From: Sinohyriopsis cumingii
Taxonomy: Eukaryota > Mollusca > Bivalvia > Unionida > Unionidae
Assembly (NCBI GenBank): GCA_028554795.2
Contig: CM068842.1
Coordinates: 49,559,574 to 49,623,573, forward strand
Direction: 5' to 3'
Length of the DNA stretch: 64,000 nucleotides
The position numbers and the translations under genes are program-made. The notes beneath the pieces are model-generated. The model worked only from the letters and a program-made list of their open reading frames with translations. It made no database searches and had not been told where the DNA came from. Of the stretch, positions 17,991 through 36,500 are shown one piece after another. Within the stretch, counting starts at the first letter, position 1. Every line of letters starts with the position of its first letter.

Positions 17991-18392
17991 AGTAGTGAAG
18001 GGGGACGATATAGGGACAATGAAAAATCCAGTCAAAAAGGTCGTGGGACGAAACAGTACAATGGGAATTTAACATGGGGAATATTAACATGGGTGGAACT
18101 ATAGAGGGACAACAAGTATTGGGATTGTATAGGGACAAGAGGAATGGAACAGGTAAGGTGACGCCAAGGTACTGACGATTAGCAACAATGTAGCAAGGGG
18201 CTGACCTCAATCTGATGAAACAGCAGGGGAAAAAACATAGAACGCTAGGCGGGAACAGGACTGGCTGGACGGAGACAGAGATAACACAGACAACATACAG
18301 TATATAAAGAACTATACAACACACTATAAAAAAATTAGGCAAGAATGCAACACTTTTCGAGGCATATGAGTGGCCCTGAAAAGGGCCTTTGG
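17991..18392 (+). repeat. Polinton left terminal inverted repeat
   Basis: About 402 bp, matching the complement of 36,111-36,500 with scattered substitutions. It starts with AGT, as Polinton termini do. Its inner edge coincides with a histone-like stem-loop, beyond which similarity stops. Confidence 0.92.
18372..18387 (-). terminator. histone-type 3' stem-loop (left TIR)
   Basis: On the minus strand: CCCAAA, then GGCCCT-TTTC-AGGGCC (perfect 6-bp stem, 4-nt TTTC loop), then ACTCA. This fits the metazoan replication-dependent histone mRNA stem-loop. Downstream GAAAAGTGTTG is a possible weak purine-rich histone downstream element. It follows the leftmost minus-strand gene. Confidence 0.75.
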
Positions 18393-18581
18393 GTTCTTCT
18401 ATTTTCTTCAGGTCTTCCACCATTTCCTCACTATTTCAATGATTCCTTTCTTCTTCTTCTTTTCATCCTCTGGCACCCAGTCAGGATGGCTCATCAATCT
18501 AAATTTCTTCTGCACTTTCATCCAGTTTTCATTTAGTCCCTTAAACTACTCATTTTTCTTTCTGTTTTCTCTTTCCTTTCT

Positions 18582-18998
18582 TTACTTGGACGAACTTTCT
18601 TTTATCTTCATCACTTCTTCTTCCAGAACTTTCCTCATTAGTTCTTCTGCTTTCTTTAGCTGGTCCAGCCCCCACCTTACAAAAGACCACTCGGTGTAAT
18701 TCAATATATCTTGTAGTAAAAAAAAACACCTGACTTTCATCACATTATCAATGGCCTCCTTCAGTGTTCCCACTCTCACATACTGAGGTTGAATGAAGCC
18801 TCGTAATCTCTTCACTTCTTTCTCTGTCATGTCTTTCACAAGATGCATGGCTACTTTTAGGTTTGTTACTTGTCTTATTACAAAGTCTTATGTAACTGGA
18901 TACCTCCATTCCTTCTCAAGCCTTTCCACTACATAGAAGGCATCCACCAACAAGCACCAACTACTGTCCTTCAAGTTGTTGAATAAAGCGATTGTCAT
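18582..18998 (-). pseudogene. Polinton accessory gene 1, small coiled-coil-like protein
   Basis: I do not recognise the family. The reading frame starts at an ATG at 18,998, has one in-frame TAA about 43 codons in, and then stays open to 18,582 (about 138 codons in all). The second half (MHLVKDMTEKEVKRLRG onward) ends in a Lys/Glu-rich, probably helical stretch (QLKKAEELMRKVLEEEVMK). A TATA box lies about 52 bp before the ATG. A histone-type stem-loop lies about 195 bp after the stop, inside the TIR. It is the outermost minus-strand gene and lies outside the capsid block. Function unknown. Confidence 0.5.
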
Positions 18999-19043
18999 CT
19001 TCTTTTGATATTCCGTAGAGTGGCGCGAACGTTGAACGCTTTG

Positions 19044-19054
19044 ACTTTATATTT
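19044..19054 (-). promoter_or_regulatory. TATA box for accessory gene 1
   Basis: AAATATAAAGT on the minus strand, centred about 52 bp before the ATG at 18,998. This is the same spacing as three other accessory genes in this element. Confidence 0.55.
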
Positions 19055-19218
19055 GTCAAGCACGGACGTGAAGGAAAACATCCCTATCAACAAAACATAC
19101 ATTACCCATATGATTACCCTAAAAAACATGGAATGTGCGGACTTAAAAGAAACACTCACTCACTTTTTACTTACAAACACTAATTACAATCACAAGATCA
19201 CTGATTATTTTGACAAGC

Positions 19219-19290
19219 TACGGAAACGAAGTGCTTATAGTCACACTTCTAACAAAGTTAAAGAAACGAGGTGCTTATAGACACACTTCT
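19219..19290. repeat. two tandem copies of a ~38-bp unit
   Basis: AAACGARGTGCTTATAGWCACACTTCTA occurs twice, joined by AACAAAGTTAAAG. Confidence 0.7.
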
Positions 19291-19336
19291 ATTTTTTTCT
19301 TCTAACTTACTAACCTACCATTGACAATTGAATTAG

Positions 19337-19374
19337 TATCTCTTTTCTAAATATTAGGTAGCCGTGAAAGGGCT
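19337..19374 (-). terminator. decayed histone-type 3' end signal after accessory gene 2
   Basis: On the minus strand: stem-loop AGCCCTTTCACGGCT (19,374-19,360; five pairs with a mismatch at the fifth position and one loop base lost), then ACCTA, and 13 nt further AAAAGAGATA (19,346-19,337), which resembles the purine-rich histone downstream element. Spacing and downstream sequence match the copy at 29.6 kb. It begins about 40 bp after the stop at 19,413. Confidence 0.55.
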
Positions 19375-19412
19375 GTTTTTGTGGACGAAGAGGTATGGCA
19401 ATCTTTTATTGT

Positions 19413-19554
19413 CTAAGATTGCGTCCTTGTCTGGCAGCAGGCTCTTTCACAGGATAGGGTCTCCTTCTTCTGAAAGAGAAGGAGAACTCTTTGGTGTCTA
19501 CACGGCAGTCGACAAAACCTCTGTCTGGTTCCTGCTGTTGCTGTCGTTGCTGAT

Positions 19555-19589
<35 letters not shown>

Positions 19590-19792
19590 TGTTTCTGAAG
19601 TCTGTACTTCTCCGTCCATTCTTCCTTTTCTTAACTGATTTCCTCTATGAAGAGCTCTTCTATCAGGTCTTCAGTCACTTTCAACATTCTGACATTCTCT
19701 ATTACTTCCGGTTTCGATATCAGGCTTTGCCTGACACGATGTAAATTCACGTAAGCTTCGTTCAACTTGGCTAGTCTTGAGCACATCTTCAT
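19413..19792 (-). pseudogene. Polinton accessory gene 2, coiled-coil-like protein with (GA)n expansion
   Basis: Family not recognised. The likely start is the ATG at 19,792 (MKMCSRLAKLNEAYVNLHRV), which lies 50 bp after a TATA box. The first 50 or so residues look helical and charged, ending in DLIEELFIEEIS. A frame change there, next to a CT/GA microsatellite (19,557-19,590) coding for repeated Arg-Glu, leads to a second open piece ending at 19,413. It resembles accessory genes 1 and 3 in size, position and charged C-terminal half, but I could not establish homology. A histone-like 3' signal follows. Confidence 0.5.
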
Positions 19793-19836
19793 TGGAGGAC
19801 GAGTCAACAATGGATGGACAGACTGGAGACTACACC

Positions 19837-19847
19837 GCTTTATATGG
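19837..19847 (-). promoter_or_regulatory. TATA box for accessory gene 2
   Basis: CCATATAAAGC on the minus strand, about 50 bp before the ATG at 19,792. It supports that ATG over the upstream in-frame codon. Confidence 0.55.
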
Positions 19848-20094
19848 TTCAAGCGATAGAAAACATCCCTACACTGTTTAGAGTCGGAACGGTAGGATAG
19901 TTTGATTTGAGGGTGAGGGATAGAGAGAAGTCAAAGAGCATGGATCACCATAAAAATAGCAAACAAACGACAGACGCCGTCTTTTTCAAAACACAACATT
20001 TTTATTCAAATAAATAACAATCAACAATTAACAATTAATAAATTTTTTAAATTAACAATCCAATAAACTAACAAACATTTTTTCTAATAACAAA

Positions 20095-20662
20095 CTATTT
20101 TGGACAATGTTGACAACGTTGTGAAGTGAAGCTGGACTTCCACTGTTGGAAGTCATTGGGCCATTGATTTACACTACGTTCCCTAGCTAAAGACAAATGA
20201 TAACAATAATGGTCACCAAACCATCGATCTACTTTCTCATCGTTTGTAGATGAGTGACGATCAAAATAAGTCACTAAATGTTCTAAAGAATATCCAAGAC
20301 AGCGTTGATGAAGAAAATACACACAATATTATCCACACACCATGGAATCTGTGCCTTGTAATTTCACATTATTGAATCGTGTTGTCTGGGCATTTCTTCT
20401 TATAAAGTCAATGATATCGTCTTCCAAAGTGGGGGGGGGGGGGCAATCCATACGAAACAAAATACTCCACACAACCTTCTTTAGGAAAGTAGACGTCTAC
20501 CCAGTGGGTTCCTGGGAGATGACTGTCGTCCGTGGTGATGACATAAGCTTGATGGTCTTGAGGTTTGCGATGAGGCACTTCATCTTTAGCACACACGACA
20601 GGATTCCAAGAAGCAGTGTAGGAACTGTGGTTCAAAAGGTAATAAAGTTCCCAGGTATCCAT
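20095..20662 (-). pseudogene. PRO: adenain-like cysteine protease (Polinton PRO), inactivated
   Basis: Homologue of adenovirus-type maturation proteases, which cleave capsid precursors in Polintons. It starts MDTWELYYLLNHS at 20,662, typical of the family. The catalytic His lies in PGTHWVDVY, followed by EYFVSYGLPP, where relatives usually have Asp in place of the Val. A G12 run (20,431-20,442) then shifts the frame. Further on, the catalytic Cys region (YCVYFLHQRCLGYSLEH) is in frame but preceded immediately by a TAA stop. The protein ends at 20,095. Total length suits the family (about 190 residues), but the gene cannot be functional. Confidence 0.85.
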
Positions 20663-20735
20663 TTGTGTGTGTGTGTGTGTGTTTTTTTTTTTTTTGTTTT
20701 TTTTGTTCTTTTTTTTTTTCTTGTTTTTTCTTTAC
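20663..20735. repeat. (GT)n plus poly-T low-complexity insertion
   Basis: A GT run followed by several T tracts lies between the protease start and the end of the acidic protein gene. It extends that gene artificially with a Lys/Gln-rich tail. Confidence 0.85.
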
Positions 20736-20739
20736 AGGT

Positions 20740-21187
20740 AATGACAAGTAACCGTTTCTTCCTTTCGTCTCTGCACTCTGAGCCAAGAGAGCTTCGATGT
20801 GATGGATCTCTAAAGTCATCAGTGGAGGAGAGGAATGATCACGCAAGTCTTTATACCACTGATGCAACGCGGCTTCTTCCGACATGAGACTCCAAGCTTA
20901 GTCCAGATACTCGTCCAGTTTTTCTTTTTGACTCAGCATCAGACATTTATTGTGTTGAATTTGACTCGGATAATCGTTTTCAGTTCCATAGCAATCTTAC
21001 TTGATCAATTCGGTAATTGTTTCTGCCAGGTGTTTGGCAAAACAGGAAACTAAATGTTGTTCTTGTTCTGGCCATATGGACTTCATGACTATGTCCTTTT
21101 CGTCTTTGTCTTGGGGTTCTGTTTCCACGGTCTCCTCCCATTCCAAAGATTCTCCACTATCCAAAGAGGGATTACAGTCTTCCATAG
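20740..21187 (-). pseudogene. Polinton acidic small protein, unknown
   Basis: Family not identified. Two stops divide about 149 codons starting MEDCNPSLDSGESLEWEE at 21,187. The N-terminal third is strongly acidic. The middle (EQEQHLVSCFAKHLAETITEL) and the end (WYKDLRDHSSPP, MTLEIHHIEALLAQS) look helical. It lies between the major capsid and protease genes on the same strand. Its start, with the end of the capsid gene, is duplicated in tandem just upstream, so a second broken start lies near 21,510. Confidence 0.5.
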
Positions 21188-21776
21188 CTTCTAATAGTCT
21201 AGAATGACTTCTCTCAAACTGTTGACTTCTATGGTATTGTCGAATTCACTGTGTGGGGTAGAGGTTTAGCAAACTCAAGTTCCACACAAGTCTGACCGGA
21301 TTTTATAGGGTGGAAATGTCCCTCATCGCTGCCTTGGTCTGGAGTGAAATCAAAATCCCACAAAGTGTAGCCTCCTGCATAATTTTCGTGGTGTTGGTTC
21401 CTAACTTCATGACTATGTCTTTTCCGTCTTTGTCTTAGGGTTCTGCTTTCACGCTCTCCTCCCATTCCATCCCCAAAGATTCTCCACTATTCAAAGAGGG
21501 ATAACAGTCTTCCATAGCTTCTAATAGTCTAGAATGACTTCTCTCAAACTGTTGATTTCGATTGTATTATGGAATTCGACATTAAGGATGACGTTAATCG
21601 TGTTGTTTACATGTATTGGCTTTGGAAAATGAAGTTCAACACGAATTCGGCCGGATTTTATAGGGTGAAAATGTCCCTCGTCGCTGCCTTGGTCTGGAGT
21701 GAAATCAAAAGCCCACAAAGTGTAACCTTCTGCTTAATCCGCATACGTAATGCCGTGACTAGTGTTGGTTCCTAAC
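21081..21776. repeat. tandem duplication of the MCP 3' end and next gene start
   Basis: Block 21,081-21,404 is repeated at 21,405-21,776. Both begin CTTCATGACTATGTC and end GTGTTGGTTCCTAAC. Each contains the C-terminal MCP motif FDFTPDQGSDEGHFHPIKSG and the start of the acidic gene. The copies differ by substitutions and a net indel of about 48 bp, so the duplication is old. Confidence 0.85.
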
Positions 21777-22810
21777 TGTCCGGTGGCTTCGTACAGGGAC
21801 AAGTACGACCTCAAGTAATTCTTCTTGTCACCAAACTTAGGTTCGAAGGGTCGGGTACACAAGGTCTTGCCATCGCAGCTGACTTCGATCTTGGATACGT
21901 CGTAGTGATAAAAGTTGAAAGGATTTTCATTCTGGACTCCGTTGAAGCATGTGTTGCTCACGATACCAAGGATAAAACGTTTGTGTAACTGCCCTTGGAA
22001 CAGATGATCTTCGATCATACAGTGCTGTCCATTGGGAATGATGAAAGTTTTCACTTCCACGCGTCATATCGGATACATGACAGTCATTCTGTTCAAAGTG
22101 TGACTGATGTCGTTTCCCACTTTAGGTAAGACGTCGTATGTAGAGTTTGGCTTCCTCGATTTTGGTTTTGTAAGCGTCATCATTTGCATCCATTTAATGG
22201 AAAGCGGTACTGCTAAGATTCAGTCTCAGGCGGACATCCACATCGTTCAGCAGATAGTTTTCTTGTAACCACATGTCCAAAAGCAAAGGGTTCCATCAGT
22301 TCTAAACTCTTGCTGTCTAGGATTTTGTTTCGTCGTTCTATAAATCCCTTATTTTGGAATTTCTTTACATCAACTTAAGTGTTGTTAAATTAACCTGGTG
22401 TATCAGGTTTCCATACCACGCAAGCATCCAGATAAGTGTTCTTGGCTTCTTTTCTGTACGTCAAGAGTTTTTCAAGGTAGGCACGATAAGGCTAAGTATC
22501 TATGCTGCTACTGACCAGTTTGTTCTTCAAGTAAAAATCCACTGAGCTGAACAACTGGCTCAGTGTCTATAGGATTTCCAGTCGGATCCTGAACTTTGAC
22601 TTTCAAGTACAAGTAACTGCTGTTCAGATCGATGTAACCTTCGGGCTGTCCTTTGATTTCAAACTTGATGGGAGTTGATCCTGAGTCATTGACAGACGAA
22701 ATGGGATGAAATTCGACCCATTGGGATTCTTGCATTGTTATCATAGCGGGTAGCAAGGCAAACAGATCCAGTTCCAACTTGGAACAGGCGCAAGACTCGC
22801 GGTGCTTCAT
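21521..22810 (-). pseudogene. MCP: Polinton major capsid protein (double jelly-roll), broken
   Basis: Homologue of the Polinton/adintovirus major capsid protein, often annotated in animals as F54H12.2-like. It starts MKHRESCACSKLELDLFALL at 22,810. The conserved N-terminal block includes WVEFHPISS, GYIDLNSSYLYLKVKV. The middle is scrambled by several stops and frame changes. The second half is clear at 22,060-21,734 (VEVKTFIIPNGQ, FQGQLHKRFILGIV, NPFNFYHYDVSKIEV) and at 21,718-21,521 (FDFTPDQGSDEGHF, NVEFHNTIEI). Overall span is about 430 codons, normal for the family, so the decay is by small lesions, not truncation. A partial second C-terminus follows in a tandem duplication. Confidence 0.92.
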
Positions 22811-22828
22811 TGTTTTTTTTTTAATGAT

Positions 22829-23274
22829 TTAATAATCAAAAACGTCTATCTCTCGGAGGGTTCCTCTTTTCTTAGTCTTTCTAGCTTTATGACTATGAAG
22901 GCTTATGAAGGGGTGTTTTCTACGTCGTCTCTTTCTGCCTTGTCCATGCTGTCGCGTCAGGGAAGCAGGAATGCCTGACTCGGCAGCGTCCAGGGCATTT
23001 ATTGGTATTTTTTATGTCGGCCCAAAATATCTTTGCCCGTTTTCAGCAAAACATCTTTGTCTGCTCTCAAGAATGCTTCTTTAGAGCTTTTGTTTGTCGA
23101 TGATGACATTTTGGAGAAATTATTTGCCTTGCGTCAAGGCGCAGCTTTCAAGGTGTGCAATCCTCATGTCACCATCTGTTTCAAAACAGGAGCAACCGAA
23201 CGAAAAACCGATTTCAACATATCTCCTAAACCATGTCCTCGCTGTCGAGCGACGCCTCGGTACACTGGATACAT
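22829..23274 (-). pseudogene. Polinton pVI/pX-like basic small protein, frameshifted
   Basis: Starts at ATG 23,274 (MYPVYRGVARQRGHGLGDML), three bases after the stop of the minor capsid gene. It ends at 22,829, eighteen bases before the capsid start. The Gly-rich amphipathic start, followed by SVFRSVAPVLKQ, resembles the membrane-active pVI-type proteins found beside Polinton capsid genes. The C-terminus is very basic (HGQGRKRRRRKHPF, HKARKTKKRGTLREIDVF), typical of pX-like nucleoprotein tails. Stops and frame changes occur near 23,160, 23,105 and 23,020. The opposite strand has a long open frame here that I regard as a shadow. Confidence 0.7.
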
Positions 23275-23277
23275 GAC

Positions 23278-23817
23278 TTACGATTCATTAGAGAATCGTT
23301 TTCGAAAATGGAGTTTCAACGTGACTTTCCCTTTGGTAAATGGAATGTTTTCTCCCAGATCTCCTTTTATAGCAACGTTGACAGTGTCAAGATACGACTT
23401 GCTGACGACACACTATATAGTACTCAATAGTGACATTTTCATGGCACTGTCCAAAGCTTTAGGAAACACGACATTAAACCTGGTAGCAATCGTGCTCACC
23501 AAATATTGACCATTAAAATAATAGCCTGAGGCAATTAGGATTTTATAGATCCACTTTTGAGTTTGTGAGTCATATTCTTTATCATCATATTTTACAATGT
23601 CATGAACTTCGACCGTAAAATATTTTTGATTTTCAACGATATTTTTGATTTGTGTCGGGTGAATGATTTACACCAAAGCCACCTCCCAATGGGCTTCGTG
23701 GTCTAATTGGATGGCCTGAGTTACTTTGGCCGTGTAACAGCATAAACAGTTGTTGGAAAACACCTCCATGGAACTCTCACTGGGTAAGGTTAAGTAAAAT
23801 TGGTTGTTGTCGTTCAT
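23278..23817 (-). pseudogene. Polinton minor capsid (penton-like jelly-roll) protein, broken
   Basis: Starts MNDNNQFYLTLPSESSMEVF at 23,817, the characteristic start of the Polinton minor capsid protein (FYLTLPSNSS type), with HEAHWEVALV about 45 residues on. An in-frame TAA follows directly, then the frame stays open through KYFTVEVHDIVKYDD and IASGYYFNGQYL to a stop near 23,430 and, after it, a final piece ending at 23,278. Its ATG overlaps the stop of the upstream membrane-protein gene (ATGA), and its stop lies three bases from the next start. This is very tight viral-style packing. Confidence 0.82.
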
Positions 23818-24217
23818 AATTCCAGAGTTCTGCTGTCCGAGGTGTCACTGGAAGTCAAAGGAGTGTCTCCGCCCAAAATGTTGTTGTTGTTGGAGTGGTG
23901 ACTGCTGGGAGGGTGACTGCCGTTGTTCCCGTTCGAGGAGTATTTCAGAGAAGGATTGGGAAGAAGGTAACCGATGCAACTGCTCAAAAAATGGTCCACA
24001 ATTGTTTGTCGCCTTGTTGAAAACTCAAATTGGCAATGGCAGCACCGATGACACAATACACCACAAAAATCTGGCAGAAAAAGACGATTTGCATTTTAGG
24101 CACACTTTCGCCACACCACACCCACAAGGGTTGCTTTTGTAGATTTGGCAGAGAAGACCTGAGTGAAGGAGTGGTCACTGAGATGGTAGTGGTATCTGAG
24201 GCTGTGTGGAAGGGCAT
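23814..24217 (-). pseudogene. Polinton one-pass membrane protein, frameshifted
   Basis: Starts MPFHTASDTTTISVTTPSL at 24,217, five bases after the integrase stop. One hydrophobic helix (MQIVFFCQIFVVYCVIGAAI) about 45 residues in is followed by NLSFQQGDKQLWTIF. A frame change near 23,990 leads to VDHFLSSCIGYLLPNPSLKY, a pattern I associate with a conserved small Polinton/adintovirus membrane protein, then a Ser/Asn-rich tail ending at 23,814. The stop overlaps the next start. Role unknown; a virion membrane or entry function would be speculation. Confidence 0.65.
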
Positions 24218-24222
24218 GATGG

Positions 24223-25290
24223 TCACTTCTTTGTATAGTCGATGACTTGCGAAGCATCGATCCAAGAATCAAAACTGGAGGATATCCTTTCCAACGCACT
24301 TTTTGATAACCCGTTTTCCTACTTTACGGGGTCTTCGTTCGAGAATGCTTTCTATGTTGTACACGTCTTCTTTTTTTGGTGACACGATGTAACTCGGGCA
24401 AGTAAAACGATTCTTTTAACACTTCCCCGTTCATGTCTTCCAATTTATAGACGGCAGGATGACGGCCATGCACTCACTCGTCCAGTGACACAAAACGATT
24501 CGATGGTCTTACTGTCAACACTCCACTTTTCTTGGGGACAGCCACTGTCGGGGACGTACCAAGCAGGCGCTCGAAAACGGTCACTTCGTTGTCGGGAGTC
24601 ACTTCTGGGAGGTGGGGGCACGTCCAATGCTTCAGTGGTAAGATTGATTGTACTCTTGAACCAGGTGGGGTAAGATGTCGATGTACTTGAGAGTGTCGTG
24701 ATGCGTAAAATATTTCCACATGCGTTCTTTCAAAGTGCGTTCAAAACGTTCCACGATGCTGGCTTTGGTTTCTGGATTCTCGGTGGTGAAAAAATGACAC
24801 GTTTCTTTTCTCCTTTTGGAAAGTTTGCTTCAGAAATTATGTGCCTTTGTCGGTTTGCCTTCGAAGAGGGTGACGACCGCTTTGTTTCAAAACCAATTGG
24901 AGGGCTCACACTAATTCACTGCTCGATTCGAAAGTCAATGGCACGACCCAGGCAAATTTGGAAAAGAGGTCGATGACACAAAACAAATATCTGTAGCCAC
25001 GATTGTAGGTGCTCAAATGAGAGACATCGGCTAAATTGGCTTGCCGTTGATGATCGATACCCTTCACTCGAGTGCGACCTTTGGAAAAGTTTCGTTGAAT
25101 GGGTTTGTGTAAAGTGTACGTGGCTTATTCTTGTAACCATCGTTGCACTTGAGGTAAATGGAGACTTTTCAGTCGAGTTTTGGCAGCACGATACAATTTC
25201 TGAATTCCTCCGTAACCTGCAGGATGGGCTGGATCGTAGTAAATGCTGACTAACACCTTCTCCGTTTTTAATAAGTCACCTACTCTTCGC
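24223..25290 (-). pseudogene. INT: Polinton retroviral-type integrase with chromodomain, broken
   Basis: Integrase that inserts the element with a 6-bp target duplication. On the minus strand: N-terminal zinc-binding region (YYDPAHPAGYGGIQKLYRAA, near 25,250-25,190), then RVKGIDHQRQANLADVSHLS with the first acidic position, GYRYLFCVIDLFSKFAWVVPL (near 24,990), a second-Asp region reading QTDKGT, fragments of the ENEET/Glu region, VTPDNEVTVFERLLGTSP, and a C-terminal chromodomain (VRWKGYPP, then FDSWIDASQVIDYTKK) ending with TGA at 24,223. Several stops and at least four frame changes interrupt it. The exact start is not resolved; a Pro/Ser-rich stretch lies just upstream. Confidence 0.88.
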
Positions 25291-25911
25291 TGATGATACT
25301 TTGTACGGGACGAGATGGTGGTTTGGAAACGGCTTTACGTGTCCGATGTGCCACGGGAGTAGAAGTCGAAGGTCGTGGTCGAGGTGGTAATGGCTTTTTT
25401 CATTTCTGGTTTCCCTTCTTTGTTTATCACTTCAGTTCTTCCAGTTGGAGTGAGGGGGAAGAGGTCAAAAAAAGGCGCTGAAATCTTGTAGGAATGGGAG
25501 CTGCTGACGGTGTTTGAAATACTTATTGTACCTCTTCTTTCTTAGGCATTCGTGGGGCTGCGTCAGTCATGACTGTTGGGGGGGGGGTTGACGATGATGG
25601 TGATGGACTTTTCATCTAGGTCTTAAATCTTTCAGAGTGGGTAGATCTGTTTCGTCTAAAGTTTCTGGTGAAAAAGTTGCAGTCATTACAAGAGTTGACC
25701 GTACGTTTACGAATTTTCTGTTTCTGATAAGGCGTGGAGATCCATCAACGAATGCAATTAGTGTTGTAACTGGGACATCTCGGTCAAATTTAGATTGGGA
25801 GGCAAATGTGGGGTCCGTTGTTCTTGCCAATGATGGTATTCCATCCATCGTTTGTAAGGCACTATAGTTTTAGAAATTCCATTCGAGTTCAAGGATCACG
25901 TATGAGACTTT
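25291..25911 (-). other. Polinton segment between integrase and core-like protein A
   Basis: Minus-strand open pieces encode a Ser/Pro-rich stretch (KSPSPSSSTPPPTVMTDAAP, near 25,615-25,560) that may be the integrase N-terminus, and an unrecognised 78-codon piece at 25,848-25,612 (FDRDVPVTTLIAFVDGSPRL). No family recognised. Confidence 0.4.
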
Positions 25912-25917
25912 TGGACT

Positions 25918-26184
25918 CTAGAGGTCCCTTTTATCTTCCTGGTCCTTTTTATCTTCCTCCCACGAGTCCTCCCAGCATGGTTCCCAATACTTTTTCTTTT
26001 GACGAATGGGGATTTTCTTTTGAACTATTTGGGGAAGAACGTGATGACGTTTGGTTAAGCATTGTTTCTGGTGTTTAGGCAAAGGTATCGTGCCTTTCAA
26101 GACGTTCAAACAACATTCGAGTTTTATTCGCATGGGTGGAGAAGCTTTGGACAGGACGGACAACATGTCTCCATGTTTGACCAA
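25918..26184 (-). pseudogene. Polinton small core-like protein A
   Basis: Resembles the roughly 100-residue conserved Polinton/adintovirus protein with an ALNVLKGNIPL-type centre: here ECCLNVLKGTIPLPKHQKQC, followed by a Lys-rich loop and, after a one-base frame change near 26,010, a Gly-rich hydrophobic end (VLGTMLGGLVGGR). The 3' part of the open frame is out of register. A probable paralogue lies at 27.0 kb. Its role is not known; basic and hydrophobic content suggests a virion core component. Confidence 0.55.
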
Positions 26185-26309
26185 ACGAGGAGGCAGTTAT
26201 TTCCTTTTCTTTCCTTTGGGTTTAGAGGAGGAATGGTTTCTGGGGGTGACATATTTGGATCTTCTAGAGCATAAAAACACAGATGCCCATGCTTTGCCTC
26301 AGACCTTTT

Positions 26310-26643
26310 TTATACTGGAACGAGTCGCCACGGATTTTCTTTACGTCGTATCAACTTGATGACAGCCATCACGTGTCGTGGAGGGGTTCTTAACGGACTA
26401 AATCGGGACTGTTCTTGCTTTGACAAATCCAGTAAACTCTGCAACATTCCCGATCTCTCTTGGACTTTGATTTTGGGAGCAGGTACTTTGTAAGCAGCTG
26501 CCACTGTAGCTAAAGAGGAAGAGGGTGTCACCGCTGGAGGCGAAGATCGTGGAGACACCGGTTTCCATTGTTTCAAATGAGGAAGAACGGGTGTCTAATT
26601 GGGGTTGGCAGACATCACCAACAACGGAGAAGTGGAAGAACAT
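26310..26643 (-). pseudogene. Polinton Pro/Ser/Ala-rich protein segment, unknown
   Basis: Open piece 26,576-26,310 reads VSPRSSPPAVTPSSS and AAAYKVPAPKIKVQERSGML, then LLDLSKQEQSRFSPL and a basic end. A frame change links it to further Lys/Pro-rich sequence (QNKRKVPPTSKSPQKTASIR) at 26,640-26,880, which may be the tail of core-like protein B. Family not recognised. Confidence 0.4.
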
Positions 26644-27299: not shown

Positions 27300-28010
27300 T
27301 TAAGTCGACAACGGGGACTTGTACAGGACAGGCCCTCCGCCTTGACACCAGTGGTGAAACAGATGGGTACGAAATCGCAAATAATCGGGGGTGGGGGTTG
27401 GTGGGTTTAAATCCACGAGTCAATATGCGTGTGGGGTTTGAGTGGCATTATCGTACGCATGAGTCAGCCAAGGCATTCCTAACTGTTTGGCTAAGACTTG
27501 CACTTGCGATTTATCTCTAGGGCTTTTAAACAAGACCACGTAATGAGCATTGAGACTGATGGTGCGATGGGCTTTACTTTGTTGAAACAAATTTTGAGTA
27601 ATGTAAATGACACTAGCATTATGATGATGCCCTTTGCTCGTAAACCACAGTTTAATTTCTTCTTCGGATTCTCCTAACATGTCCTCGAAAATGACCAGAT
27701 GGGTTTGACTGGGGTCAGACACAGTTCCGTCTTCTTCGCTAGGAATCCCTTCCACAAACACGATGGAATCGCCTCAACTTTCTCGCAAGAGGTTGTAAGC
27801 CGATTTTCACTCTTTGTAACAGCACACGATTCGTTGAGGTGGACGATCGATCAAATGATGTTTATGTTTCATCAAACGTTTGACAAATTCGGTTTTGCCT
27901 GAGCCACTAGGTCCGGCAATGAGCATGTTAAAGGGATGGTGAAGATACAAGGCCTCCCAACTGGCACGAAGTAAGTGTTCGTCGATGATTTGAAAGTGAA
28001 GGAAGAGGGA
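27300..28010 (-). pseudogene. ATP: Polinton A32/FtsK-like genome-packaging ATPase, three in-frame stops
   Basis: Packages DNA into capsids in related viruses. Walker A is intact as IAGPSGSGKTEFVK (about 27,910). Walker B is HLVIFEDML, followed by the sensor-like SVIYITQNLF, then LNAHYVVLFKSPRDKSQ. In-frame stops fall after QRIVCCYKE, shortly after in LLRES-GDS, and after TQTPHAY at 27,420. Beyond the last stop the family C-terminus (LVDLNPPTPTPDYLRFRTHL) is still readable to a stop at 27,300. The N-terminus appears fused to truncated polymerase sequence near 28,020. Confidence 0.88.
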
Positions 28011-28024
28011 GCAGAGACAGCAGA

Positions 28025-28673
28025 GGTAGCCACTTCGTGAGGGTGCACTTTCAAGGTGTAGCGTGGAGCTAGGATATATTGCAATTGTTGCATTTCAGGA
28101 ATGCACAGGGTGTCTTTGGCTAGCCCCGCTTGTTGTAACAGGAGTTGTGCTGATTCTCTTTGGTGTTTGGCTCTGTTCGATGTTCGAATGTTCTCCCAGT
28201 CTCTTTTCCATTTTATCGTGTCGTTCTTGTCAGCATACGTTCATTCCACCACGATGGCAAGGGCTAAACACATCTGGTCTTGAGGGTTGTTAATTTGGAC
28301 GAGACTACGCTTGATACTTTGAAGGTCGTCGATCAATAACACTTTTCTGCGTTGTCCGATCCCCTTGGGGAGAGAGACGTGGGTCATGAACAGTGTGGCT
28401 TTTCCATCGGTGATATGAAACTTGTCATTGGATTGTTGCACGTGTTGAATCTTGTCGATGACTTTGGAAGGTGTTAATTCTGCAGGGCTACTAAACAAGA
28501 TCCAAACGGAAGACTTGAGACTGTCGTGATGAATGGAAAGTCTCTTTGGGTTCACATTGTTGTTTCAGTGTGGTTAACAAAGAATCCCACACCTCGGTGA
28601 TAACGGTCTCTGCTTTCTCCAACGGTACGTCGGACTTTAAATCTTTTAATTTCACAGTGTACGTGTAAGCCAT
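28025..28673 (-). pseudogene. POLB: N-terminal part of Polinton protein-primed DNA polymerase B; catalytic core missing
   Basis: Starts MAYTYTVKLKDLKSDVPLEK at 28,673. After a frame change it reads SSPAELTPSKVIDKIQHVQQ, SNDKFHITDGKATLF, VSLPKGIGQRRKVL and VQINNPQDQMCLALAIVV, then in another frame LCIPEMQQLQYILAPRYTLK. This is the order of the long N-terminal extension of Polinton PolB, upstream of the exonuclease and polymerase domains. Immediately after, sequence switches to the start of the ATPase. No exonuclease or YCDTDS-type polymerase motif is visible anywhere in the element. A deletion of about 3 kb is inferred from the usual family length. Confidence 0.8.
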
Positions 28674-28984
28674 CGTTCTAGATTTTCTAGAGGAGCGCTT
28701 TTCCGTCTCTCAAATGTGATAGTACTTTTCAGGGTTTACTAATGGTGGTGAACTTTGGATAGGTGTAGACTATCTGGGTCTCGATTCTGGCTCACTCATG
28801 TCATCTTCAAAATCACTGGCATGAATTTGTACCAAGACTTCAGCTACTGTACCAGGCGATAAATTACGTTTCTGCCTCTTACTTTCTTCTCCTTTCTCCA
28901 CGAAATGATGCGATCGTTTCATCTTGAGTACGAAAAGTCAAATGACTACATTTTAAACGCTATTATACCCATGTCAAACCATAG

Positions 28985-28995
28985 TATATATAAAG
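28985..28995 (+). promoter_or_regulatory. TATA box for the zinc-knuckle gene
   Basis: TATATATAAAG, about 57 bp before the ATG at 29,048. The leader CATTTCACTCTCAAACCGAG contains no other ATG in good context. Confidence 0.65.
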
Positions 28996-29047
28996 GATGT
29001 GTGTCTTCCCTTCCAATATTCATTTCACTCTCAAACCGAGCAGAACG

Positions 29048-29419
29048 ATGGAAGAGCCCACAGAAATCGAACTTCTGATCAGAGCTTTGCGAGGTGTCAT
29101 AAGAAAATTTTCTTCAGACAAGCCGACGGACTACTCCCCCTCCAATCGAGATAAAAGTCAAGATACTTGCTATATCTGTAAGAAGAAAGGACATTGGACT
29201 ACAGAGTGTCCAGACCGTCAAAAAAGCCAGACAAGTGCTAGAAGAGACAAAAGTCAAGATACCGGTTATCATTGTCAATAAAAAGGACATTGGTCTTCAG
29301 AATGACCTAAGAAACAACAGGAGCAAGCAGAAGAGAGGGGTTCCGAACATTTTTTAAATTTCTTCATGTTCACAGGTTTTTCCTCCTCTTCGTCCTCACT
29401 TTCTCCTCGAACTTTTTAA
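29048..29419 (+). pseudogene. Polinton accessory gene: CCHC zinc-knuckle protein, two in-frame stops
   Basis: Plus-strand gene divergent from the polymerase, 124 codons counting two internal stops. It begins MEEPTEIELLIRALRGVIRK. An intact zinc knuckle CYICKKKGHWTTEC (CX2CX4HX4C) is followed about 20 residues later by a second, ruined one: its first Cys is Gly, a stop interrupts it and another stop replaces its last Cys. The KSQDT spacer is repeated before each knuckle, so the knuckles arose by internal duplication. The tail is acidic then Ser-rich. Such knuckles bind single-stranded nucleic acid in retroviral Gag and LINE ORF1. Capture from a retroelement or a host gene is possible. Confidence 0.7.
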
Positions 29420-29600
29420 AGTGTTGTGTTGTGATGTGAATTGGATGTAAAATTTGTACCAGAATAGACCAGACAGAAAACGTAAGTGTCTCTTGGTTTT
29501 GATTTTTAGAATATGAACCTACACTCATGCATTCACTCACTCACATCATGGGTATAAGAAAGGGCTGTTGAGTTTTAATTGATTTTGGCAATTGAAATAC

Positions 29601-29640
29601 TATCTCTTTCCAAGATAAGTGGGTGGTCATGAAAAGGACC
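29601..29640 (-). terminator. histone-type 3' end signal after accessory gene 3
   Basis: On the minus strand: GGTCCT-TTTC-ATGACC (29,640-29,625; five of six pairs, mismatch at the fifth), then ACCCA exactly as in histone mRNAs, and 13 nt after the stem GGAAAGAGATA (29,611-29,601), which matches the position and composition of the U7-binding downstream element. It begins two bases after a TAA stop. Confidence 0.65.
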
Positions 29641-29641
29641 G

Positions 29642-30201
29642 TTAGGTATTTGTTTGTTCAAAAAACAAACAGAGGAACGGGACGTAATCATCTTTAACTG
29701 CCTTAAGCCTTTGCCACGCCCAAGGCCTACTTCTGGACTGGCCCCTGTCGATGATGATTTGGTGGAAATCACTAGGGGTGGTATCGCAGGCGTAGTAACA
29801 GGACTGGGTTGTTTGACTCGGGAAGGTCTTTTTCTCTTGGGTCGTAATAAAGAAGTCTAATACATTTGTTTCAGACTCCTTAACTCTGCTACAGTGTCTA
29901 AAAGTACCATTACCGTTTGGCTTTCACTATTCTCCTTCTCTCATAGACCTTGTTTCTTCTCTGCTGCTTCTTCCTGTCGTTTCCTTCTTGCCTCTTCTTC
30001 TTCTCTCTGTTGATGTTGAAGGAGAAAAGAAGAAAGAAAATCGACTAAACCCCAGTTAAAATCGACCTCTTTTAGATGTAAGCCTATGTTGACTTTGGTA
30101 GCCACTGCTATACCATCGCTTCTCGTCTCCACGTCCGGTGCACCCCAATTCATTGTCTTCTTAGTTGTTATTGGTGTGGTCCGTCCCAGAATTAATATCA
30201 T
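29642..30201 (-). pseudogene. Polinton accessory gene 3, Glu/Arg/Lys-rich C-terminal half
   Basis: An open piece at 30,201-29,941 reads TMNWGAPDVETRSDGIAVAT, LKEVDFNWGLVDFLSSFLLQ and then the coiled-coil-like QQREEEEARRKRQEEAAEKK. After a stop and frame changes, another piece (IIDRGQSRSRPWAWQRLKAV) runs to a TAA at 29,642. The start is uncertain. It is near the right edge of the original element, next to the nested LINE, and is followed directly by a histone-like stem-loop. Family not recognised; the layout resembles accessory genes 1 and 2. Confidence 0.45.
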
Positions 30202-30925
30202 TCGACGGACTCCCTAGTTCCGAATAGTTAAAGGGTTTTATGTCTGTTTGTTTTTCCCCACAATATGTATGATTATGTTGTATTGCAATTATGAAGAATT
30301 TAACTTTTAATAATTTTGATTCTAGGGTTTGTATACCGTCCTATTCTTATGTATAGATTCTCCTCAACCCTGGCTGTTCTTGGAGTTTATTTAATATACA
30401 GTGATCCTTGAAGGGATCAGTAGTGTCCTTTGTGTGATATGTGTATATGCTATTTGTTTGTATGTTATCCTGCTTAGTTGTAAGGACTGGCTATATATGA
30501 ATCAGATTCTAAGAGTTGTCAGTCATTTATTGGTTCATTTGTAACTCGGGAAGTTCGCTGGTGACGTAGTTGTCATCTGTACCGTGCTTCCCGGTTTATA
30601 GAACCTTTTTTACTTTAATGTGTGTGCTTTGTAAGATAGAGATAGGTAGAGGAAAGATTGGTATAATTAATATGTTGGATATATGTATTTGCAATTGTAT
30701 TTTTGCGTGTATTTATGTCTGCATGATGTACAGTGTTTCTGTGCTCGTAATGTTCTTAACTGTTCATTGTTTGTATGTCTATTCATTGATACACAAGGGT
30801 CTCAGGTATAACATTACCTAGAAATTTGCAATTAATGAATAAAGTAGTTGAAGGAATTGTAAATTAGAATTCAGTATCTTCTCTTATGTTTTTATGATTA
30901 AATTAATATATAAAGTTAATTCTTT

Positions 30926-33087
30926 TTATATATCTTTATCAAGAATGTTATTTGTGTAGAGTAGTTGTTTGTTATCTATTATTCCATATTTATTCTTAAT
31001 TTTATCTCTTAGAGCCTGTCTTTCTGTTGAATTTTTAGGGCATACAGTAATTAGGTGGGTTTTTGAATCTATAGATTTTCCACATAATCTACATTTTGGT
31101 AGGGTATTTATTAAGAATCTAATACAGACAACTTCGCCCGTTACCCATTTATCAAGCAGGTATAGGAACAGTCTCCTTTGGACGGAGGCTGACCCTATAC
31201 CTGCCCAGTTTTTCCAGATGGCCTTCCAATTCAAGTCAGGGTAGCGATATTCAATTTCTTGTTTATCTTGAGAGACTATTACGTTCAGGATTTCATAAAT
31301 ATTGTTCTTCCTGTCCCATACTTTGGTATTGTCTCTGTAGCTGTATAACAGTTCACTAACTCTTCTACATGACCCTGGGGGTTTTAATATTTTAATTAAT
31401 TTGCTATTTTTATATATATCATTATTAAAACGGAATAAGTAACTATATATATAAATATTTATTGCTTCCCAAGGTAATTTGGGAGAACTGCTTAATTTAC
31501 TAAACCTATTTAAAATAATTGCTTTTTGCTTAGTACTGAAGCTGGGCAAGGCTAGCCCTCTTTTTCTTTGGATCTGCATATGTATTTTTCTTCAAGTAGT
31601 GGATTTTATTATTCCAAATGAAGCTCATTATTTTCCTTTCAATGTTGTCGATCATGGCTTCTGTTAGTTGCACCGAATTCACTACATAATCTAATTGACT
31701 ATTCATGTGTATTTTAGCAAACTGTATACGGTCCATTAAGTTGATCTTTGTGTGCGACTATGCTTCAATCTGCTTTTCTATCTTGATTAATACCTCACGG
31801 TAGTTCTTGTGAGTGGAGTTCATTCTGTAAAATATCCCTAATGCTTTTTCATGATTTTTAATCAGGTTTGGGATCTACGAGGGTGGTTGCCCCTCCAGTT
31901 TCCTATTAATAACATTTCTGTTTTGTCATGGTTAATTGCGGAACCAGAGGCTTTTCCAAATTGTTGGAATTCATACTGTAAATGTTTTAAGGAATATTCA
32001 TCTCCGGTAACGTTTGTACAGTCATCTGATTGTAATATGGTTTTAAAATCATGTTTCAAATTTGGCATTTTGATTCCTTGAATATTAGTGTTTTGGTTGA
32101 TATTTATGTTCAAGGATTATATTGCTATCACATATAGCAACATAGATAATGGACAGCCTTGCCTCACCGATCTTTCTATTTTTATATCATATGTGAACGC
32201 TCCGTTGATAATTATTTTGTACGTAATAATAGCATGGATGGCTTTAATCCAATTTATAATGTGTCTACCAAAATCACACCTCTCTAAGGTTTTAAATATG
32301 AAGTCATGCTCTATTCGATCAAAAGCATTCTCCTGATCGAATAGAAACATGACTCCCTCTTCATTTTTAATTTTTAAATATTCTATTATAGCTGATAGTG
32401 TGTTATCTAAAATGTTCCTTCCTACCCCTCCACACTCATTTATATATATTATTAAATTTAAACAGTTCCTTATCCTATTAGTTATTATCTTACTCAGTAT
32501 CTTATAATCATTGTTTAATAAAGTTCTCGGTCTCCAAGTTTTGATTTCCTCCCTGACCCATTTCCCTTAATATAATAATGTAATCATTCCTTCCCTCATG
32601 CTTTTAGCCTTGTAACCAGTTAGTAAAATGATGTTATAGAGTAATTCTAAAAAAAATCTACTAGTTCGTTCTGAAATTTAATATCGAAGTCCGATGTGAT
32701 TCCACCGGATCCAAAAGACTTCCCTTTTTCGAGACGTTTTATAGCTTTTATTATTTTCTCAGCTTTGATAAGCATATCACATTTTTCACATTCACTTAAA
32801 GGTATTTGTTTGTACGTGGTTTGCTGTAAATTTTGGGATTTATATATATTTGTGTAATAGATTTTAATGCATTCTAGTGTATCTTTTTTATCCTTGTAAG
32901 TTATGTTATTAAAGCGAATTGATTCAATCTTTTTAAAATTCCCTCTTTTTATTTCTAGTCTTTTATACAGTCCTCTTCCCTTTTTATACGAATTCGAATG
33001 TTTTCCTGCTCTAATTTTGATACCTTGGGTTAATTCTTTTTCTAAATCCTCCCATTGTCTAATAGCTTCCTTATCTTCATGTGTCAA
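30926..33087 (-). pseudogene. LINE ORF2, reverse transcriptase and C-terminal domain
   Basis: From 5' to 3' on the minus strand: a linker (33,087-32,647) with KRLEKGKSFGSGGITSDF, palm motif A in 32,350-32,117 as LFDQENAFDRIEHDFIF, motif B as SVRQGCPLSMLLYVIAI, a catalytic loop now QSDDC in place of YADD (about 32,030), ASGSAINHDKTEMLLI, then a C-terminal part (31,579-30,926) with CRLCGKSIDSKTHLITVC, a CCHC-type knuckle common in L1/Tx1 ORF2. Frame changes separate these segments. The QDxEKAFDR and VRQGCPLS patterns place it in the L1/Tx1 group. Confidence 0.8.
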
Positions 33088-33207
33088 AAGTTCATTTTTT
33101 GTTTTAATTTCAGAGTACTTCTTTTTAATCCATTGTTTATGTATTGTTTTAGTTTTGCTCTAATATGTTGTTATTCTCCTAATCTCATTCTTTATTATTT
33201 CCCAGTC

Positions 33208-34050
33208 TCATATTATATTTCCCACATATTTTGTTTTAAAATTATTCATATGGGTGCGGAATATATGTGTATAGTCAACATCTAAAAGGTGAGTATTATT
33301 CACCTTCCATACGCCTGCACCACATTTTGTTGTGTTTGCAATCAGTATCTCAAGTGTAATCAATCTGTGGTCTGAAATCTGCTCATCCAAAATTGCACAC
33401 GTTTTAAGTACATTAATATAGCTATCTGAGATATAGAAAATGTCGAACCTACTTCCATTGTTATTTCCATACATGTACGTATATTGCCTGACACTTGTGT
33501 TACAGTATCGGTATGCATCCGTTATGTTATTTGTCTTTGTAAATAATTTAATCCATTTATGAAGCCTATTATCTGACTCAGTAAGTTGTTCACTTTTGTC
33601 CAATTCTGTTTGTATCCAACTGAAATTTCCTCCTAATATACAAGGGTCGGTAACATAGTGTTGAATATAATGATTTACATTAATAATAAAATTTACTTTT
33701 GTAGGACTTACGCTTCCTGATGGTACATATGTATTAAAATACATTCCACTTATTCAATTTAATATGAATTAAACGACCTTGTAATTCTTTTGGGTTTTTT
33801 AAGTGTTCAAAGTTTAACCCCTTGGCAGAACGCCGAACAATTGTAGCCACCCCGGAAAAGATTTCGGACGGGTGGTTATCGGTAATAACTAAGGCGTCTA
33901 ATTCCTCCTCTAGTTTCTTCACCACATGCTCAGGCATTTTGTGCGTTTCTTGTATTAAAATTATGTCATAACGTTTTGATTATTTTATGATTTTATCTAT
34001 TTTATTTGTAATTCCATTTATGTTCATAGTCAAGATATGTAGGTTTAATC
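33208..34050 (-). pseudogene. LINE ORF2, AP-type endonuclease domain
   Basis: Reads TMNINGITNKIDKII and ILIQETH (catalytic Glu) near 34,040-33,930, then EELDALVITDNHPSEIFSGV, YVPSGSVSPTKV, a degenerate GDFN box as ILGGNFSWI, GNNNGSRFDIFYISDSYI and the catalytic SDHRLITLEI box. It would nick target DNA for reverse transcription. Stops near 33,960 and 33,740 break it. Confidence 0.75.
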
Positions 34051-34146
34051 CCTCCATATTGACTATGGACAGGTATTTTAGTTTCTTTATGTATTAATTT
34101 GTAAATTTCAAAGTGAAGGTCTTGTGACTTATAAAAGCAATTATAT

Positions 34147-35181
34147 TTAAAATAATTTTGTTTGTTTAGTGGGCAGTCTTCTTGCTCTGTACTGTTCTAT
34201 ACTAATTTTTCTCCTGTCTCTGTTCAGAGGAACTGCTCTTCTCTCTTGCTGGTGATCTTTTTTCTCATTTCTAGATTCTCTGATGAATTCCGTTATGTCT
34301 GATTCTGAGGGAGTCATGGGGGTGGAGGCTGCCCTTTTCCTCTTCGTTGGAATCATAGGAGTTGATGTGTTTTTCTGCATTTGCACGGGGGGTTCTTGAG
34401 TTTCCAGATAGTTTGGACATGTAGCTCCTTGATTTATGGATTCTTCTATAATGTTACAGCGTTCCGGTGTTTCTTTTTCTTCTCCGAATTTCGGTTCCTC
34501 TATGACGTAGCATGGAATAGGTTTTTTCGTTTTGATTTTTTATTCTTTTGCCTCCAATTCTTTCTTTCTCAGAATTATCCGTGCTCTGGCTTTGGCCTTC
34601 TTCTTTTCTGCCGAGCTTGCTTGGCTGGCATCTTCCCACTTTTCTGATATATCTTGTGATGGCACTTCTGAGCTCGCTTCCAGGCTATCCTGGATAGGAG
34701 AGTTTATCACTTCTCCTATTTTGTCTTTTGTCGGTTCTGGCACTTGTTATAAAGCTTTTTCCGTGGCCTCATCGACTTTGGGTTCTTGTGTAGTATTTCC
34801 TGCTGCCGCCGCATAGGATTTTGGGACGGTGTCTTGTGTTTGCTGGTTGTTTTGGTTGTGGTTTTGGCAGTCCCTTGGAAGGTGACCCATATTTCCACAC
34901 CTATTGCATTGCCTGTGGTTCTCACACCCTCTATACCATGATTTAATCATGAAACCCATGACATAGAAATATGGCTGAATCTTTTTGGCATATTCAGCTG
35001 CTAGGGTCAAGATCCTTACCCTTGTGAATACAGTGGGGAAACCCCAGTAAGTCGCCATCTGGGCCCTGGTGACTTTAACTCCGAATTTCTTGTCCACATT
35101 ACTTGTTAACTCTTTCAGTGAGATTTCTAATGGAAGCCCAGAAAAGTGGACCTCCACGTTTGTATCTCCCAGGACTTTCAT
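34147..35181 (-). pseudogene. LINE ORF1, RRM-like and zinc-knuckle nucleic-acid-binding protein
   Basis: The main piece (35,181-34,747, 144 codons) starts MKVLGDTNVEVHFSGLPLEI, an RRM-like fold start, continues to GVKVTRAQMATYWGFPTVFT and ends with a CCHC knuckle CNRCGNMGHLPRDC. Further charged pieces at 34,743-34,540 (Lys/Glu-rich) and 34,386-34,147 are in other frames. The LINE ORF1 relic at 61.4 kb has a similar order. Confidence 0.75.
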
Positions 35182-35388
35182 CAGTGGTGGTGGTGGTGGT
35201 GGGGTCGTATATCTTCACCGCTTTTTCTTTAATTTCTATTGTTTGGTTGTTCTTGTAGAGGGGTATATCTCCCTTGGCAAATAGAAGTATAAACCTCTTC
35301 CACCATTTTGCAGACCTTGAATGTTTTCCGTCTTAGTTCCTCTCGTTATTAGATATTGCAAAATTTCTTAGTTTCCTTCATGTTTGAA

Positions 35389-35647
35389 GGGGGCCCCGAG
35401 TGGCCGAGTGGTCTAAAGCGCTCTCCGTTATGGATCACTACCATCTCACCTCTGTCTGGGTGGGTTCGAATCTCGGATTCAGCCAATGTGGGTATGTGAG
35501 AAAGCTTGCCAGTAGCTTCTCGTGGGTCGGTGGTTCTTTCCGGGGTTTTCCCGTTTTATTCCTCCACCATTAATACTGGCCGCCATGTATAGCCTATCTT
35601 GTGCTGGAAAATTGCGTTAAACCCCGCAACAACAACAACAACAACAA
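35389..35647 (+). mobile_element. SINE-B copy 2, full length
   Basis: tRNA-like head with box A GAGTGGCCGAGTGGTCTAAA and box B GGTTCGAATC separated by a long variable region (Leu/Ser tRNA type), then the family core and a (CAA)n tail. It is flanked by an 11-bp target duplication TCATGTTTGAA at 35,378-35,388 and 35,648-35,658. The perfect duplication suggests a fairly recent insertion into the Polinton or the LINE edge. Confidence 0.92.
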
Positions 35648-35820
35648 TCATGTTTGAAAACTGTGTCGCATGGATTGACTGATCACAGACGCGATATAGG
35701 GAATGTGACGTCACAGCCCGCTCCCTTCAGACTGGAAGACTGACTCCGTGTTGTGACTGAAATTTGTAACGCGTATTTGGATTGGTGAATAAACTCAATC
35801 CGTTTCTATCCGCACTTCCC

Positions 35821-35830
35821 CTATAAATAA
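35821..35830 (+). promoter_or_regulatory. TATA box for right-end accessory gene
   Basis: CTATAAATAA, about 48 bp before the ATG at 35,872. Confidence 0.55.
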
Positions 35831-35871
35831 CCGCAGTTCACTGCATTCCCTTCACCTGTTCTCGTCACAAG

Positions 35872-36097
35872 ATGTGGACAAACGTTGAATCATCTATTCT
35901 CGTATCCTCAATGCTGTTCCGTACGAACTTACCCATTTTGTCAGATCATCATGGACAATTATCAGGATCACCGATACAAGCGTTTGGAAAAGAAGAATTT
36001 ATGTGGAGAGACAAGGCTGTTTGAAGAGAGTTCTCATCATCAGAAGTTTGAGGAAGAGAAGAAAACCTATGATATGCCCTCTATATTAACGGAATAA
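35872..36097 (+). pseudogene. Polinton right-end accessory gene, small, probably frameshifted
   Basis: Two overlapping readings are possible. From the ATG at 35,872 (48 bp after a TATA box) a frame runs 50 codons (MWTNVESSILVSSMLFRTNL). From 35,950 another runs to TAA at 36,097 and is charged (YKRLEKKNLCGETRLFEESS, KFEEEKKTYDM). A frameshift joining the two is plausible. A perfect histone-type stem-loop starts 18 bp after the stop. The gene points outward into the right TIR. Family unknown. Confidence 0.45.
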
Positions 36098-36110
36098 TGT
36101 TAACAAAAAA

Positions 36111-36500
36111 CCAAAGGCCCTTTTCAGGGCCACTCATATGCCTCAAAAATTGTTGCTTTCTTGCCAATTTGTTTCCCAGTATGTTGTATAGTTGTTTATA
36201 AGTTGTATGTTGTCTGTGTTATCTCTGTCTATGTCGCGCCAGTCCCGTTCCCGCCAAGCGTTCTAAGTTTATTTTTTCCTGCTGTTTGCTCCGATTGAGG
36301 TTAGCCCCTTGCTACATTGCTGCTAATCGTCAGTACCGTGACGTCACCTTACCTGTTCCATTCCTCTTTTCCCTATACAGTTCCAATACTTTTTGTCCCT
36401 CTATAGTCCCAACCATGTTATATTCCCATTGTTCCTATATCGTGCCACGACCTTTTTGACTGGATTTTCCATTGTCCCTATGTCGTCCCCTTTCACCACT
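36111..36500 (-). repeat. Polinton right terminal inverted repeat
   Basis: About 390 bp, complementary to 17,991-18,392. It ends CACCACT, i.e. AGTGGTG from outside. The inner edge coincides with the CCAAA flank of the stem-loop. Confidence 0.92.
36116..36131 (+). terminator. histone-type 3' stem-loop (right TIR)
   Basis: CCAAA then GGCCCT-TTTC-AGGGCC then ACTCA. It has a perfect 6-bp stem, TTTC loop and near-consensus flanks, 18 bp after the stop of the right-end gene. The downstream purine-rich element is weak (CAAAAATTG). Confidence 0.78.

Follow-up and report, generated by a model that had tools for sequence, protein, structure and literature searches.

In metazoan replication-dependent histone mRNAs, the 3' end is defined by a stem-loop that is bound by SLBP and by a downstream element with which the U7 small nuclear ribonucleoprotein (snRNP) pairs, and CPSF73 cuts the transcript a few nucleotides past the stem; these mRNAs carry no poly(A) and accumulate in S phase. 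To our knowledge, the usual teaching is that 3' ends of this kind are confined to replication-dependent histone genes. Here we describe signals of the same type on the accessory genes of a Polinton/Maverick-type (adintovirus-like) transposon family in Sinohyriopsis cumingii, starting from a 64,000-nt stretch of the 2.90-Gb assembly GCA_028554795.2 (contig CM068842.1, positions 49,559,574-49,623,573, forward strand), which is referred to as the window. The family resembles known Polintons and Mavericks in its terminal inverted repeats (TIRs), a candidate integrase (rve) remnant, an A32-like packaging ATPase and a family B polymerase found in a relative; it differs from them in the histone-type 3' ends of its accessory genes.

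We found no publication that connects a Polinton with a histone stem-loop or SLBP, or an adintovirus with polyadenylation, and a search of a study of vertebrate Mavericks (PMC8097293) for the terms histone, stem-loop, hairpin and polyadenylation found none of them. Six histone stem-loops of 3' untranslated regions have been counted, without comment, among the non-coding RNAs of Polinton-like virus and virophage genomes (PMC12220804); in section 16 of that paper they are not linked to gene ends, to a downstream element, to a host comparison or to a mechanism. To go by that section, the bare Rfam match in Polinton-like viruses is already in print, and we found no account of a bipartite signal that sits on a class of genes and is matched to that of the host.

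The signal in the window copy and in host histone genes

A sequence-only reading of the window had proposed four histone-like stem-loops at gene ends. Three of these are recovered by the Rfam histone stem-loop model RF00032 (cut-off 34 bits; Table 1), the two in the TIRs exceeding the cut-off and the 29.6-kb copy falling short of it; the fourth, at 19.37 kb, stands only as a decayed copy, which is how we read it because relatives carry AGCCCTTTTCAGGGCT at the same gene end. The description of the TIR pair as perfect agrees with the sequence, both copies reading CCAAA GGCCCT-TTTC-AGGGCC ACTCA with six perfect pairs in the stem and a TTTC loop. The 29.6-kb copy reads GGTCCT-TTTC-ATGACC ACCCA; the ACCCA reported after it is present, and one of the six pairs in its stem is mismatched (5/6 pairs). 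Both internal copies are followed by AAAGAGATA as had been claimed, though the spacing is not exactly 13 nt but 14 nt in the 19.3-kb copy and 15 nt in the 29.6-kb copy, and the GAAAAG that lies 13 nt past the left TIR stem had been missed. The argument that four such sites are unlikely to arise by chance holds in part. With a simple stem-loop scorer, the element sites scored 31, 31 and 24 against a best of 23 in 60 first-order Markov sequences of 64 kb; a site outside the element, at 2,426-2,411, also scored 23, a value reached in one of the 60 simulations. The RF00032 E values point in the same direction. However, the TIRs are ~85% identical, and their two stem-loops are therefore not independent and count as one observation, while the 19.37-kb copy contributes no significant match.

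Host histone genes end in the same two-part signal. A typed H4 query gave 114 matches in the assembly, most of them in tandem clusters whose repeat unit is ~8.27 kb. The H4 genes end in GGCCCTTTTTAGGGCC followed by GAAAAG at 13 nt in both copies read (RF00032, 37.7 bits), and H2B, H2A and H1 of the same cluster end in GGCCCTTTTCAGGGCC, GGCCCTTTTAAGGGCC and GGTCCTTTTCAGGACC, with GAAAAG at 13, 14 and 14 nt, respectively. Among 108 sites in the transposon family, 94 have GAAAAG at 13 or 14 nt, compared with 0.06% of shuffled downstream sequence; when sites are restricted to the 117 with a downstream element no more than 30 nt away, the distance from the stem end to AAAGA is 15 nt at 112 and 16 nt at the other 5. 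The stem-loops of the family also score higher than that of host H4 in 69 of 75 RF00032 matches (42.6-45.6 bits). Since stem, loop, downstream element and spacing are all alike in the transposon and in host H4, H2B, H2A and H1, we equate the two signals, and the evidence that these sites are histone-type signals for mRNA 3' ends is strong. The earlier reading of histone-type 3' ends thus stands as a statement about signals, which are family-wide, on the sense strand, positioned after stop codons and matched to four host histone genes. Many of the host histone arrays lie on short contigs; the part read holds H4, H2B, H2A and H1.

Accessory genes that end in the signal

Searched against the whole assembly, RF00032 produced 589,472 first-look candidates, of which 75 were scored, all 75 exceeding the cut-off. 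We examined 56 of these loci: 55 match the window element or its accessory proteins by BLAST, and the remaining one, a 306-base piece (locus L054), has a geneL frame visible by eye. None of the 50 loci tested by tblastn with larger flanks encodes a histone. The stem-loop is preceded by a recurrent set of small genes, namely geneR (76-78 aa), gene29 (~182-196 aa), geneL (~130-200 aa, of two types), gene19a and gene19b. Because the loci had been selected by their stem-loop, we counted only gene ends other than the RF00032-selected (bait) site, allowing up to three substitutions in the stem-loop and excluding tblastn matches of <45% identity, of <25 aa or stopping >12 residues before the C-terminus, which included low-complexity false matches. 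By this count 58 of 59 bait-free 3' ends carry the stem-loop (44 of them exactly), with an AAAAGA-type element behind it in 58 of 58; the classes contribute 21/21 (gene29), 17/17 (gene19a), 6/6 (gene19b), 2/2 (geneL) and 12/13 (geneR). From the stem-loop towards the gene, in twenty 10-kb loci with at most one substitution allowed, 46 of 47 stem-loops sit behind one of the accessory genes on the sense strand, and the other follows a frame-broken geneL.

Core genes (the long open reading frames of PolB, the capsid and the zinc-knuckle protein) have no stem-loop of their own in twelve loci, and the signal therefore marks a class of genes. The exception is a fused frame in locus L032 that starts in the protease region, ends in the geneL C-terminus and carries a stem-loop. 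This frame (5042-6040, 332 aa) is open and lacks the gene19 region. A(A/T)TAAA lies 58-83 nt downstream of the zinc-knuckle gene in four of six listed copies (L034, L036, L039 and L042; not L038 or L044); within 150 nt the motif is rare after accessory genes and mostly missing after core genes too, and for this reason we do not use the contrast in poly(A) signals as evidence. The subfamily of the window copy, whose proteins are 48-65% identical to those of its relatives, retains the signals. GeneR is a real coding gene: in 45 pairwise comparisons drawn from 24 copies, third codon positions differ 333 times, first positions 127 times and second positions 75 times. No such third-position excess is seen in the last 75 codons of gene29 (52, 96 and 105 changes over the three codon positions; 37 pairs). 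Protein relatives of gene29 exist (20 proteins). One public relative, P0082, reads past the usual C-terminus into ...SGPPTSLEKRY, which resembles a translated stem-loop and downstream element (cf. L051); as the only such tail among 93 proteins, it may be taken as a hint only.

The exact bipartite pattern GCCCTTTTCAGGGC-Y-A-N12-R-AAAAG occurs 47,774 times in the genome (23,666 + 24,108) and its reversed control not once (0 + 0). This number, set against 114 H4 matches, and the location on virus-like transposon genes distinguish these sites from histone 3' ends proper. The pattern also fits host H2B, and a share of the 47,774 places must therefore be histone genes; should H2B and H4 occur in roughly equal numbers, this share would be small. 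The first 100 places come from a single contig. With 6 of 23 sets put aside because they nest within others, 74 of these places make up 17 complete sets, each of four or five sites in the order found in the window, where two or three tandem sites at one end are separated by 13-18 kb of other sequence from a divergent pair. Divergent neighbours <2.5 kb apart are spaced 1,086-1,124 bp in 19 of 19 cases among these places, and the outer stem-loops are 15-21 kb apart. At about four sites per element, the family would number some ten thousand copies. A search with gene29 gave 29,252 first-look candidates in the genome, and the 150 that were scored all have at least 90% identity.

Possible use of the histone 3'-end pathway and its alternatives

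Taken together, these sequence comparisons make it highly probable that the terminal accessory genes of this Polinton family form their mRNA 3' ends through the SLBP/U7 histone pathway of the host. In this family, geneL, gene19a and gene19b on the left and gene29 and geneR on the right each end, ~15-40 nt past the stop codon, in a copy of the bipartite host signal made up of a 6-bp stem, a 4-nt T-rich loop and an AAAAGA-type element ~13 nt later. In the proposed mechanism, host SLBP would bind the stem-loop and the U7 snRNP would pair with the downstream element, GAAAAGAGAT and GAAAAGAAAT being the proposed pairing partners; the pre-mRNA would then be cut a few nucleotides after the stem with no poly(A) added, and the accessory mRNAs would be transcribed, kept stable and translated chiefly while the host replicates its DNA. 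We infer the use of SLBP and U7, the absence of poly(A) and the S-phase timing from what is known of the pathway. As the TIR starts at the stem-loop, both outermost genes would share one terminator, whose copies can be kept identical by conversion between the TIRs. We lean slightly towards the wider claim that a virus-like family of about ten thousand copies may route a class of its genes through the histone mRNA pathway, yielding non-polyadenylated, replication-coupled mRNAs.

A number of observations weigh against this proposal. The right TIR copy shows CAAAAA at 13 nt and no clear downstream element, and the 19.37-kb copy is not significant by itself (12.7 bits). Among the larger samples, one of the 59 bait-free gene ends is without the signal and 14 of 108 sites are without an exact GAAAAG at 13-14 nt. 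The bait-free ends come from elements that had been selected for a good stem-loop elsewhere and belong mostly to gene29, gene19a and geneR, and the subfamilies sampled are biased by the selection of loci by RF00032 score. A search of the assembly for the U7 snRNA gene with RF00066 gave no match, 65 candidates having been scored out of 801,960. A U7 sequence pattern gave six matches compared with ten in the control, none of them with a good 3' hairpin. Outside the source genome, DNA relatives were found at 0 loci in IMG/VR (searched with the pattern, the ATPase, the capsid, PolB and gene29) and in GTDB contigs (searched with gene29).

The stem-loop could instead act at the level of DNA, where an inverted repeat bordering the TIR on its inner side would have a role in recombination, replication or packaging and its likeness to the histone signal would be secondary. 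The TIRs do start at the stem-loop. Of 18 comparable loci, 17 share one orientation of the gene29/geneR segment that lies between two stem-loops, and locus L003 (~770-2650) has it reversed, the outcome expected from recombination between the inverted stem-loop repeats. However, the internal genes also carry the signal, its placement follows sense-strand gene ends (58 of 59 bait-free ends, 46 of 47 stem-loops), and a hairpin in DNA needs no downstream element at the spacing of host histone genes; a role as DNA is in our judgement improbable. We assign a similarly small chance to a histone 3' end that was captured once, spread by duplication and gene conversion and is not used. Many copies are young and alike, the TIR copies can convert each other, and gene19a, gene19b and geneL may, by inspection, be paralogues, all of which would suit such a history. 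Against it stands the conservation of the signal relative to its surroundings. Over the 16 nt of the stem-loop, pairwise identity averages 1.00 for geneR (34 copies), 1.00 for geneL (16 copies) and 0.97 for gene29 (29 copies), compared with 0.49, 0.55 and 0.83 at 75-140 nt downstream, where the stem-loop values are inflated by the bait sites that these classes include and the geneR and geneL contrast comes partly from that selection. The gene19 classes contain no bait sites and give 0.94 (gene19a, 17 copies) and 0.92 (gene19b, 6 copies) compared with 0.76 and 0.73 downstream; 11 of the 113 sites, of unrecognised class, were left out of the comparison. Bait-free geneR ends are exact in 12 of 13 cases, and the old subfamily retains the signal. 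In addition, the gene19 class has AGCCCT/AGGGCT in place of the GGCCCT/AGGGCC found elsewhere, a paired change of A-T for the basal G-C pair that keeps the stem; most other differences between stem-loops are single and decay-like.

In mimivirus a hairpin marks the site of polyadenylation or termination, and the location of the present hairpins at gene 3' ends would fit a generic mark of this sort. Their sequence is fixed, though, and equals the host histone signal down to the downstream element and its spacing, and we regard a generic hairpin as very unlikely. Chance hairpins or misassigned host histone genes are barely conceivable as an explanation of the whole: the weak 19.37-kb match and the inclusion of some host H2B genes in the genome-wide pattern are what such an explanation can draw on, while chance is rejected by the RF00032 E values, the Markov simulations and the empty reversed control, and misassignment is rejected for the 50 loci tested.

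If the terminal accessory genes do use the SLBP/U7 pathway, a virus-like element would here couple its expression to DNA replication in a new way, by means of the full host signal on several small genes, at tens of thousands of places. Since exact signals so far outnumber the H4 matches, S-phase bursts of element transcription could compete with histone mRNA for SLBP and U7, which raises the question of whether the element burdens the histone pathway. The element sites would also supply natural variants of the processing signal, and an RF00032 match in an animal genome need not indicate a histone gene.

Anatomy of the window copy and neighbouring repeats

The window copy is an old, dead Polinton/Maverick-type element of an abundant family, and its features are collected in Table 1. 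The packaging ATPase remnant has 70 relatives, several with PF04665 on record. No Pfam match to family B polymerase was found in the window copy; the relative L039 has an open frame of 1204 aa with a viral family B polymerase domain (PF03175, E 8.8e-42). No Pfam match to a capsid or protease was found, and the pieces entered under these names are presumed from their motifs to be such. A target-site duplication of 5-6 bp was sought at the outer ends of the window copy, which are not sharply placed.

Table 1. Features of the Polinton/Maverick-type element in the window (window positions; HDE, histone downstream element; LINE, long interspersed nuclear element).
Feature	Position	Strand	Remarks
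Left TIR	17980..18398		inner end starts just before stem-loop; ~85% identical to 36105-36511
HDE-like GAAAAG	18353..18358	-	13 nt past stem, as in host H4 and H2B
Stem-loop after geneL (TIR copy), perfect	18372..18387	-	RF00032 38.1 bits
GeneL remnant (broken accessory gene upstream of left stem-loop)	18411..18887	-	open pieces; 53% identical tblastn relative
HDE-like AAAGAGATA	19337..19345	-	14 nt past stem
Decayed stem-loop after gene19b remnant	19360..19374	-	AGCCCTTTCACGGCT, out of register, 12.7 bits
Gene19b remnant	19409..19930	-	open pieces; 65% identical to relative in L031
Presumed protease-like piece	20411..20731	-	no Pfam match
Presumed major capsid gene pieces	21524..22828	-	no Pfam capsid match; first piece with three relatives
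Candidate integrase (rve) remnant	24635..25124	-	PF00665 E 5.2e-4 in 24909-25124, 20.7 bits against cut-off of 32.6
Packaging ATPase remnant (Pox_A32-like)	27423..28094	-	PF04665 E 1.9e-4, below cut-off
Zinc-knuckle gene, opposite strand	28994..29278	+	PF00098; relatives without stem-loop
HDE-like AAAGAGATA	29601..29609	-	15 nt past stem
Stem-loop after gene29, one mismatch	29625..29640	-	RF00032 27.5 bits, E 5e-4 (computed over 4227 families), below cut-off
Gene29 remnant (MTETQKT...GKGLRQLK family)	29642..30213	-	48% identical to L034 protein
LINE insertion splitting gene29/geneR pair	30926..35214	-	RVT_1 PF00078 E 1e-18 in one piece; open pieces
GeneR remnant	35831..36097	+	53% identical to L034 protein
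Right TIR	36105..36511		~85% identical to left TIR
Stem-loop after geneR (TIR copy), perfect	36116..36131	+	RF00032 38.9 bits

Other repeats lie in the remainder of the window. A LINE at 52567-55532 retains a pair of open reading frames, 466 and 525 aa long, with endonuclease (PF03372) and reverse transcriptase (PF00078) domains, and a pair of direct repeats, 93% identical, occupies 1-1706 and 55637-57334, the second copy with a weak reverse-transcriptase match. A dispersed repeat of up to ~280 bp lies beside the right TIR at 36747-37028 and recurs near 6.2, 9.0, 42.0, 49.0, 50.1 and 62.4 kb; it may be a short interspersed nuclear element (SINE).

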